Assembly (NCBI GenBank): GCA_001600175.1 | Contig: BCJC01000001.1 | Coordinates: 1-64,000 of the forward strand | Reading direction: 5' to 3' | Origin: Erythrobasidium yunnanense | Lineage: Eukaryota; Basidiomycota; Cystobasidiomycetes; Erythrobasidiales; Erythrobasidiaceae | Length of the DNA stretch: 64,000 nt | Part shown: one piece after another, positions 1 to 2,941 of the stretch | Numbering within the stretch: the stretch's first letter is position 1 | Layout: the number at the start of each line of letters is the position of its first letter | Program-made: the position numbers and the translations under genes | Notes under the pieces: generated by a model | Databases searched by the model: none | What the model was told of the DNA's origin: nothing | Seen by the model: only the letters and a program-made list of their open reading frames with translations

Positions 1-95
1 CTGTAACCCTCTGTAACCCTCTGTAAACCCTCTGTAAACCCTCTGTAAACCCTCTGTAAACCCTCTGTAAACCCTCTGTAAACCCTCTGTAACCC
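1..95. repeat. Telomere-like tandem repeat with 10/11-bp unit
   Basis: The first 95 bases are a head-to-tail array: two 10-bp units CTGTAACCCT (1-20), six 11-bp units CTGTAAACCCT (21-86) and a partial 9-bp unit ending at 95. The only unit-to-unit difference is two versus three A residues. The C-rich strand runs 5' to 3' from the window's first base, as expected for a left chromosome end; the G strand reads TTTACAGAGGG. Length variation at a single homopolymer step resembles telomerase template slippage. A subtelomeric minisatellite just inside a canonical telomere is the alternative. Confidence 0.75.
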
Positions 96-215
96 GAAAC
101 CTTCTACAGCAGAAAACCCAGCGGCCTTGCCTTCGCACAGCTGTACCCTCACTGAAGCCTCAAGTCGGTTTTCTAAACAGACTTTGAAGACTGCGTAGGG
201 CCTCTACAAAGAAAG

Positions 216-1378
216 GTCAGCAGTCTTGAGGTGTCTTACAGACGCTGTTGGAAGCGCTAAACAGAAGGGAGACGGCGCTTCTCGCCCAGAGTAAAGAGCA
301 GGGGAGCTAAAGTCCTTGACAAGTTTGTCTAGTTTGTCAGACGTGTGCGACCTAGAGAGTGTAGCCTACTAACAGCGCAGACCAGCACGAGACAAACCTG
401 GTCGACGCTTTCACGAGCTGACGCCAAAGAGAGGAGTCGTGGACTGCCCAGACAAGCGTGTGTCAGCCTTCAAGAAGGTGTCTGAGCAGCCACGACTCTT
501 CTCTTTGGCGTCAGCTCGCCTAAAGTCACGGCCTAGACGCCTGGTTGACGAAGAAGGAGGTAAGAGACGCTGAGCTGTAGTAAAGCGAAGTGAGTCAAGG
601 AGTGTCGAAGTCACCTTAGCAGGGCTTGAGCAGTCAGCTCGGTGGTGTGAAGCCTTTGAGTGGCTTTGGCTCTGTTGTACCGTCAAGGCTCTTGCTAGTT
701 CTGCGCCTTTGCCGAGCTGAGACTTACTCGAAGTGTGTTGCCAGTCTTCGTTGTAGCTACTGGAGAGTGTGACAAGGCAGGAAAGAAAAAGGAGAAGCGT
801 CAGAGCCTGCTGAACAAGGCAGGCGCACACGGCGTACCTAGAAGTCGTAGCCAAAACAGACCGCCCAGAACGCCAGACTGCGGCACCAAGCTTCTCAGAC
901 ACTCCCAGACGAGCAAAAAAGACCTACTCACAAACTTGTAGCCTGTTTACAGCCAGAGGTAGAGCCAGTCCGGTCCAGGTTGGCCAGGGCACAAGGTGAG
1001 GCCGAGGGAGAGGTCGCCGCTGTACAGACGGACGTTGTCAGTGACTGGCAAGCTACGACAGCTTCGGCAAAGACACTGTACTTACAGAAGGCCAGAACGG
1101 AGGGTGCTCTCCCTTTGCCAGACAAGGCAGTTGCAGCCGCTGGCTCACGAACACAGGCAGTAGGTCAGTGAAGAGCACAGAAGCTCAGAAAGGTGACTCA
1201 CGAGCCAGTCTGGGAAGTGTAGCTAGTCCAGGGAAGTGCAGGCCTTCCAGCTGAAAAAGCTGTTAAGTCGCCTTTTTAGCCAAAGAAGCGGTCGGAGAGC
1301 CTTCAGCTAGGGTCAGTTAGCGTGTGCAGCAAGTGTCAGCGTCAGCAGTCAACCGAAAAGCCGTCAGAAAGGCGTCAG
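216..1378 (+). repeat. GTCAG-rich subtelomeric block
   Basis: The pentamer GTCAG occurs on the plus strand at 216, 336, 462, 510, 633, 799, 1037, 1312, 1335, 1341, 1363 and 1374. That is twelve copies in under 1.2 kb, where about one is expected by chance. Copies are irregularly spaced, with a cluster at 1312-1378. Spacing is not periodic, so this is enrichment rather than a tandem array. Confidence 0.45.
414..518. repeat. Imperfect inverted repeat (hairpin) in the subtelomere
   Basis: Bases 414-441 (starting CGAGCTGACGCCAAAGAG) are matched by the reverse complement of about 491-518 with one mismatch. The complementarity continues inward over roughly another dozen bases (CTGCCCAGACA against CTGCTCAGACA) with small interruptions, leaving a central loop of about 20-25 nt. 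It could be a MITE-like foldback, a cruciform-forming subtelomeric element, or part of a subtelomeric transcript. I saw no clear target-site duplication. Confidence 0.7.
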
Positions 1379-2941
1379 CAGGAAGCCCGAAAGTCAACCA
1401 GCGATTCTCGAGGGCAAGAGCAGTCGCCGTTGTAGCTGACGTCCTCAGCTTCCCGGTACGTCGTGTCACTAGCCGGTGCGACAGTTGCAGCGGCCGTACT
1501 GAGGTCCGTCGAAAACGGCCAGAAAACGAGTAGGCTGTCGCGAGCCCACGAAAGGAGCTAGAGCGAAACGAGCAACAGAACAGTGATCTAGAGGTCTTCC
1601 GCATCATTTTGGTGTAGGTGGCGTCGTCGTAGGGTCAATATTGAAGAAGTTAGCCATTTTGGACGCGCAGGCTGTCCAGCTTCAGGCAGCTTTCGCCGCG
1701 ACAAGCCGATTTGCTGATGGTAATCTTGATGTATGCGAACGTCGATATATCAAGAAGACTTGTCATCTTCTCTAATTGCAAGCCAGGTACGAGGTCCCAA
1801 AGTCAACCGGCATTCCTTGCCTTTACGCCATCAAAGTCGGACCAAGCTGTCAAGCTAGCATTGCGACATCTATCGATACCACTGACGAAGCAATATATAC
1901 TAATTTAGCCTAGCTACTGAAGTTCTTCCTCGTGCTCTCGCTTCTGCATCTCCAATCCCGAACTGATATATCACGTCTCATTCTATACTCTATTCGCAGC
2001 AATAAGAAGAAATATGGTTTCTTCCTACTCTATCTTGCTTGCAACGATCTTCCTTCAGGTCTGGGATCGCTATGCCGTTTTGACTTCGAACAACTCGCAA
2101 GCTACCTCGACTTGTAGATCTCGGCATTGCCATTCATATCATAGGAAGAAATACGTCACGCAACAATATGAACCGAACAGCCAGTCGAGAGGATGTGTGA
2201 GGAAGCTCGATCAGAAGCTTTAGGCGAGAATGAGGGCTGAGCAGCAATGAGCAAGCTGGAAGCTTGCCCCATTGAAGTTAGACAGATTTCTTACTACCGA
2301 GTGAGCTCCCTCTGCTTCCGTCATGGACAGTCTCGACAGCATCACCTCAGCTCGCTTCCGGATCAGAGACGATAGAACGATTTCCATACTGCAACCCGTT
2401 GGACGCTCTCCTGTAACGCCTAGCATCCACCGCTCTCCTCCAGCAGTTGGTGGGTGGATCTTTGAACGATCGTAGCATGAACGGAGGTGAGCAGCATGAC
2501 ATCTAGCTTGCAGATTATGGGAATAAATCTGATTTCTTCTTATCTTCTGTGCCCCAGCTCATCGTGCGACTGCGTTGGACGACCCTCTCCGTCTTCGAGG
2601 CCTATCATCTCCCGACCCTCACTCAGCTCTTCCGTAACTAAAAGTACCCTTGGGAGAGGCAAAGCTTGGTCGTAGTAGCGAAGATACCTGTGAGTATGCA
2701 TCTTTACACGTGTCCGCCTAAAATCATTGCTGACTTGAGCTTATTCGTATCTCGTGGCCGGCTTGCTACCTTCCATGCGAGCGAGCGCTTTGATGGCAGC
2801 CGTACAGCTTCACGAGTCTATAGTAAGCTGGGCAGCGAGAGACTTTGTTGATCTTGAGCAGCCGCAGCGCGATCCTGCATGATACGCCCGGTAATGAGTA
2901 CAGAGTCTAACAGGGTAGCTTTGCAAACTACAACGACAGCT

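Follow-up and report, generated by a model that had tools for sequence, protein, structure and literature searches.

Whether the short tandem repeat that opens a contig is a genuine chromosome end, and what kind of DNA lies behind it, is the question raised by the first 64,000 bases of contig C1 (hereafter the window; Erythrobasidium yunnanense, BCJC01000001.1). To answer it, the genome (20.9 Mb in 10 contigs, C1-C10) was searched, and all 20 contig ends, here labeled L (left) and R (right), were inspected. We conclude with high confidence that C1L carries a telomerase-maintained telomere with a 10/11-nt repeat, backed by a block almost free of the dinucleotide AT (ApT) and by a border element pointing toward the telomere.

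The repeat at the contig ends

The array that opens the window is the following.

1..95, minus strand: telomeric repeat array, 8 full units counted, with the G-rich strand (TTTACAGAGGG/TTACAGAGGG) running toward base 1.

Positions 1-92 read (CTGTAAACCCT/CTGTAACCCT)n, corresponding to TTTACAGAGGG/TTACAGAGGG on the G-rich strand, and repeat-like letters extend to about position 95. From base 1, two CTGTAACCCT units are followed by CTGTAAACCCT units. Tandem Repeats Finder returned a single array at 1-92 with period 11, 8.5 copies and 98% matches. Chance is not an adequate explanation, because period-11 self-identity held at 72 of 84 positions, compared with a maximum of 40 in 2000 shuffles. Of 51 genomic occurrences of the exact 22-mer CTGTAAACCCTCTGTAAACCCT, 30 forward and 21 reverse, 50 lay at contig ends; its reversed control occurred nowhere in the genome.

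The window repeat closed 10 of the 20 contig ends (C1L, C1R, C2R, C3L, C3R, C4L, C4R, C5R, C7L and C9R), always with the G-rich strand outward; C1, C3 and C4 carried it at both ends. Across these ten ends, 107 pieces were counted, comprising 70 TTTACAGAGGG (11 nt, 65%), 25 TTACAGAGGG (10 nt, 23%) and 12 single variants, some of which sit at the inner array edge. The 21-base TTAGGG-type run TAACCCTAACCCTAACCCTAA was absent genome-wide, and TTAGGGTTAGGG was absent from the window and from the 25 loci checked. Based on these results, window positions 1-95 are very probably a genuine telomere with the unusual 10/11-nt repeat TT(T)ACAGAGGG.

The first-pass annotation had proposed a non-canonical 10/11-bp telomere in a basidiomycete. 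This proposal is borne out by the unit and its outward orientation at half of the contig ends, and the TTAGGG repeat that was expected at other chromosome ends if the proposal were wrong did not appear. Its basidiomycete part is supported by one protein, which places the organism in Pucciniomycotina. This protein, from the first long frame in the window, is judged by its relatives to be a guanosine diphosphatase of the GDA1 type. Among named sequences it matched Mixia osmundae best, at 68% identity over 68% of its length as query. Further named matches were other Pucciniomycotina, and two environmental proteins scored higher (among the best 120 of 2442 matches, with 7996 candidates scored). 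The statement that unit length varies by a single T holds for the C1L array (six units of 11 nt and two of 10 nt); across the ten telomeric ends, 12 of the 107 pieces have neither form.

Alternatively, the array could be a subtelomeric or interstitial satellite, with the real telomere lying outside the contigs. Short telomere-like stretches do exist inside the chromosomes, at 16 interior loci found by two exact 12-mer searches. These stretches hold just 12-28 nt of exact repeat, whereas ten contig ends stop within the repeat with the G-strand outward, and no TTAGGG-type run was found. We regard the satellite account as highly improbable.

Long or derived telomeric repeats have precedents. A TelFinder study reports 21 Basidiomycota, most of them with TTAGGG, and its text also quotes variants 5, 6 and 8 nt long (PMC10100673). 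These variants include TTAGGA and TTAGTG in Malassezia, TTGGA in Hericium and TTAGGGGG in Agaricus (PMC10100673), and a 7-nt motif is quoted for Malassezia elsewhere (PMC12506658). The basidiomycete variants quoted there are likewise derived repeats, but of 5-8 nt rather than 10/11 nt. The Aspergillus oryzae-type repeat TTAGGGTCAACA, as quoted, is also long and derived, but it belongs to an ascomycete, measures 12 nt and differs in sequence (PMC10100673). The CAGAGGG motif is absent from the main texts of TelFinder and TeloBase, and among the papers listed by a literature search for the repeat, judged by title, none looked related to it.

Telomerase, template candidates and interior repeats

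A telomerase that could maintain this repeat was sought in the genome. The TERT RNA-binding domain PF12009 was found at C2:1326454-1326681 with 63.7-64.2 bits (cut-off 25). In a frame near it, RVT_1 matched weakly (E 0.0016) and did not reach the family cut-off, and a LIDDFLLIT-type catalytic motif was recognized at this locus by eye. The RNA template copied by telomerase would span about 1.7-1.9 units, and realignment at the AA(A) step would produce units differing by one T, giving the TTTACAGAGGG/TTACAGAGGG mix.

By reasoning, no perfect template built from 11-nt units and measuring at least 17 nt should escape the two 12-mer searches. They returned at least 16 interior repeat loci, 13 from the first 12-mer (among 100 of 108 matches listed) and 3 more from the second. 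Nine of the 16 had at least 17 nt of exact repeat, and three of these nine lie in introns. Among the six non-intronic loci, four were set aside: two run into degenerate units, one has 27 nt, and one has AA copies only, although most telomere units have TTT. Two candidates were left. The first, L040 (C1:2032807-2032826, minus strand), comprises 20 nt or 1.8 units 3' of an open frame and is flanked by the complementary 8-mers CGGACTAC/GTAGTCCG, read directly. The second, L047 (C2:2269454-2269474, plus strand), comprises 21 nt with one AAA and one AA copy. This pair of copies would give a simple account of the 10/11 mix if the candidate L047 were the template.

The position of L040 resembles that of the telomerase RNAs of Ustilago maydis and Malassezia, which are described as lying 3' of UMAG_03168 or NDK1 (PMC10035886, PMC12506658). 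Its 20-nt repeat stretch differs from the 9-11 nt template quoted for Ustilaginales (PMC10035886). RNA folding near the candidates provided weak evidence, with a z-score of -1.97 for L040, equalled or bettered by 7 of 200 shuffles, and one of 0.12 for L047, and the L040 repeat stretch is partly paired in the predicted fold. The frame neighboring L040 had no Pfam match, and no conserved telomerase RNA domain was found at L040. Rfam gave nothing in the window and no telomerase RNA in the 16 interior loci, where one match was at chance level. The P6.1-like 15-mer quoted for Ustilago had no match with up to 3 mismatches on the candidate strand of these 16 loci.

Telomere-binding proteins were searched with the degenerate motif DLKDKWRN, which we take to be the telobox Myb motif of TRF/Tay1 proteins. 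This search gave 12 matches at up to 3 nt mismatches, compared with 4 in a reversed control. The best match, with 2 mismatches, lies in a frame that resembles the DNA primase small subunit. No convincing TRF/Tay1-type Myb emerged from this one degenerate telobox search, a weak negative; an intron within the motif would hide a match. In Yarrowia lipolytica, the 10-nt telomeric repeat TTAGTCAGGG departs from TTAGGG and keeps the GGGTTA core read by Tay1, and Tay1-type Myb proteins read GGGTTA (PMC7952879). Yarrowia is an ascomycete and its repeat has another sequence. Here the 10-nt unit is TTA-CAGA-GGG; GGGTTA occurs only ahead of such units, and the core becomes GGGTTTA ahead of the 11-nt units (70 of 107).

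Four of the 16 interior stretches (L039, L042, L044 and L045; 16-25 nt of telomeric repeat) lie in short GT-AG introns of 60-70 nt, and the open frame continues across each intron after splicing. Three spliced pieces matched Pfam families, namely phosphoglucose isomerase, signal peptide peptidase and a major facilitator superfamily transporter; the fourth had no match. One repeat-bearing intron ends in CTAAACCCTCAG, where the telomeric repeat may supply both branch site and acceptor. A one-mismatch interior match was also seen at C5:2028368.

The AT-free block and its border element

Behind the array, the window carries the following features, among them an AT-free block that is absent from the first-pass annotation.

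96..1585, no strand: AT-free telomere-proximal block, with 1 AT (at 1404) in 1490 bp and 73 expected from composition.
414..518: imperfect palindrome inside the AT-free block, 105 bp, 80% self-complementary.
1586..1587: inner edge of the AT-free block, the first AT of ordinary sequence.
1586..2001: ordinary AT-containing subtelomeric sequence, matching C1R (to 1939), C2R (1681-1865) and C3L (1689-2001) at 71-73% identity.
1602..1613, minus strand, toward the telomere: border element ACCAAAATGATG, at the C1L block edge.

Similar blocks were found at C1R, C3R, C4L, C4R, C5R and C7L (L010, L015, L016, L025, L018 and L020), with 1, 0, 0, 0, 1 and 1 AT, compared with 29.8, 4.4, 44.4, 24.0, 91.0 and 89.4 expected from the base composition of each block, respectively. 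Pooled over these 7 of 10 telomeric ends, 4 AT remained in 6,858 bp where about 356 were expected, and the loss covers the adjoining 0.1-1.6 kb. The telomere repeat itself contains no AT. The six blocks of at least 461 bp had an observed-to-expected ratio (O/E) for AT of 0.00-0.03, whereas no dinucleotide fell below an O/E of 0.22-0.43 in 1000 random window pieces matched to each block in length, and window positions 5000-64000 had an AT O/E of 1.00. The remaining 15 dinucleotides ranged from 0.53 to 1.61 in the pooled blocks. The inner edge is sharp, with 4-13 AT within the first 100 bp inside. A coding account of the block was dropped, as no conserved frame was found.

The blocks of C1L, C1R, C4R and C5R are homologous, with 58-68% pairwise identity in shared columns (32-42% diverged); for C1L the homology covers part of the block, about 600 bp or more on its inner side. 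In the alignment, their edges lie no more than about 25 bp from a common position, and the C1L-C1R homology does not stop there but extends into the AT-containing DNA beyond. The C7L and C4L blocks matched only themselves when searched against the genome, and a more sensitive local comparison found that C5R and C7L share 146 bp beside the telomere at 68%. AT is thus missing from largely unrelated sequences that share a position and an edge. Its absence is not simply an old accident, because related copies now differ at about a third of their positions and still have not gained AT.

An interior member of the same family as the four homologous blocks was found at C2:637000-638000 (L051). In shared columns, this relic has 9 AT in 549 bp, compared with 2 in 2,130 in the four telomeric copies (binomial p 2e-5). 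It may be the remains of a former chromosome end or a segment that was relocated. Ten of its 13 AT sites could be aligned, and the 38 corresponding telomeric cells read GT 12, GC 7, AC 1 and others on the C-strand, a pattern that is suggestive only and leaves the direction of change unsettled.

At the block edges, ACCAAAATGATC was found with at most 1 mismatch at five of the seven ends (C1L, C3R, C4L, C5R and C7L), oriented telomere-ward. The telomere-ward strand there reads ACCAAAATG, with its ATG 22-77 bp inside the first AT, and then a CAAGACCTCT-like stretch. These five were the only occurrences in the 297,401 bp examined, where about 1.3 were expected by arithmetic; window shuffles gave a mean of 0.28 per 64 kb, and 25 of 100 shuffles had at least one. 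The pattern was picked after the edges had been seen, and its weight rests on exclusive position and orientation rather than on the count alone.

Several observations weigh against this description of the chromosome ends. Eight of the 20 contig ends carry other sequence in place of the repeat, and two are unreadable. C2R, C3L and C9R (L013, L014 and L023) have the repeat without a real AT-free block (C2R has 58 AT-free bp, with 3.1 AT expected), and the C3R block, at 101 bp, does not reach significance by itself. AT remains scarce in the relic too. Its border element is degenerate, as are those at C1R and C4R, and ACCAAAATGATC gave 29 matches, mostly elsewhere, once two mismatches were allowed. 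Open reading frames from the border ATG are not conserved (8-159 amino acids; the longest enters the telomere repeat), and for this reason we read the border element as a putative transcription start or boundary site rather than a protein start.

At C3L the array is directly followed by the shared inner subtelomeric sequence, and at C2R the shared sequence begins about 135 bp inside the array; C2R, C3L and C9R look as if broken ends had been healed by telomerase. C6R (L026) and C9L (L022) have 2,995 identical bases of 3,000 compared, in inverted orientation and with a long C/G homopolymer nearby, which may reflect a join that the assembly missed or a repeat that it left unresolved. C10 has one sequence at both ends, in inverted orientation, and the whole contig (57,881 bp) is 88% identical, ungapped, to its own reverse complement; the assembly may be at fault here, or the locus may be a large palindrome. 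Because of these two cases, some of the eight repeat-free ends are probably assembly breaks. Separately, the start of C10 (L024, 1-153) contains a tandem peptide frame, YPPGGAVSICTVSK...CVVA*, presumably akin to a multi-copy prenylated mating pheromone precursor.

Loss of ApT and its meaning

How ApT could be lost up to a fixed edge was considered next to the composition of the blocks. On the telomere-ward strand, AC exceeded GT in 6 of 6 blocks (AC O/E 1.24-1.72, GT O/E 0.52-1.16, background 0.85 for both; C3R left out), with the reservation that four of the six blocks are related and that the C7L difference is small. The AC excess suggests a change of AT to AC on the TERRA-like (telomeric repeat-containing RNA) strand, that is, A to G on the C-rich strand. 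Together with an edge at a start-like element, this excess points to a process coupled to telomere-ward transcription. The border element would be the start of a TERRA-like transcript running toward the chromosome end, and the stretch from this element to the end would be continually purged of ApT, by targeted mutation or strong selection. Judged from the sequence, we lean slightly toward this putative arrangement of start element and purged stretch. The more specific proposal, a telomere-linked removal of ApT between a conserved start element and the end, strand-biased, most likely acting on TERRA-transcribed DNA and amounting to a new form of targeted mutation or selection, is put forward tentatively, at slightly under an even chance.

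Selection without a mutational process is a serious if less probable explanation. ApT-bearing DNA or RNA would then be harmful, for example through recognition by a nuclease or an RNA-decay enzyme. Four diverged copies have their edge at homologous positions to within about 25 bp, as expected for a functional unit, and AT is commoner in the relic, which lies away from the end. In its fit to the data, selection against ApT comes close to a transcription-coupled process. However, all AT contexts are gone on both strands, which a start-codon constraint would not require, and the AC excess in all six blocks, with its related copies and the small C7L difference, looks directional.

N6-methyladenine (6mA) placed at ApT could also mark the block and drive the loss. 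The genome has three MT-A70 loci (7 matches) with subfamily unassigned, but the AMT1-type 6mA pathway is reported as lost in Dikarya, which makes ApT loss by this route unlikely in a dikaryan fungus (PMC12695648). An artefact of assembly or base-calling is very unlikely. Telomere-adjacent regions are hard to base-call, but the blocks occur at seven ends whose sequences are mostly different, transitions as well as transversions separate the homologous copies, and the interior family copy contains AT. Repeat-induced point mutation (RIP) causes strong loss of one dinucleotide over a bounded stretch, and four of the blocks are diverged repeats, but cytosine deamination of this kind can be practically dismissed, as it changes bases in the opposite direction and makes AT-rich DNA where here AT is depleted, blocks with no second genome copy found (C7L and C4L) are equally AT-free, and the edge is not set by repeat ends, with C1L-C1R homology running beyond it into AT-containing DNA.

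Yeast X and Y' subtelomeric elements and TERRA units are repeated, lie behind the telomere and have a conserved inner boundary, and the AT-free blocks resemble them in these respects. We know of no ApT exclusion in these yeast elements, and of no earlier case of targeted mutation or selection built on ApT. Among the papers listed by literature searches, none reported ApT depletion near telomeres in its title or the start of its abstract.

Herein, our findings extend the range of basidiomycete telomeric repeats from the 5-8 nt of the quoted sources to 10/11 nt. Because GGGTTA survives only before 10-nt units, this repeat is a test of how a telomerase RNA and a Myb telomere protein adapt. The AT-free zone is more surprising than the repeat and may be categorically new, with a single palindromic dinucleotide lost almost completely over as much as 1.6 kb of sequence that is otherwise complex. 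If the loss is mutational, it would represent a genome-modifying activity tied to chromosome ends that, to our knowledge, has not been reported previously; if it is selective, it would reveal a new constraint on subtelomeric DNA or RNA.
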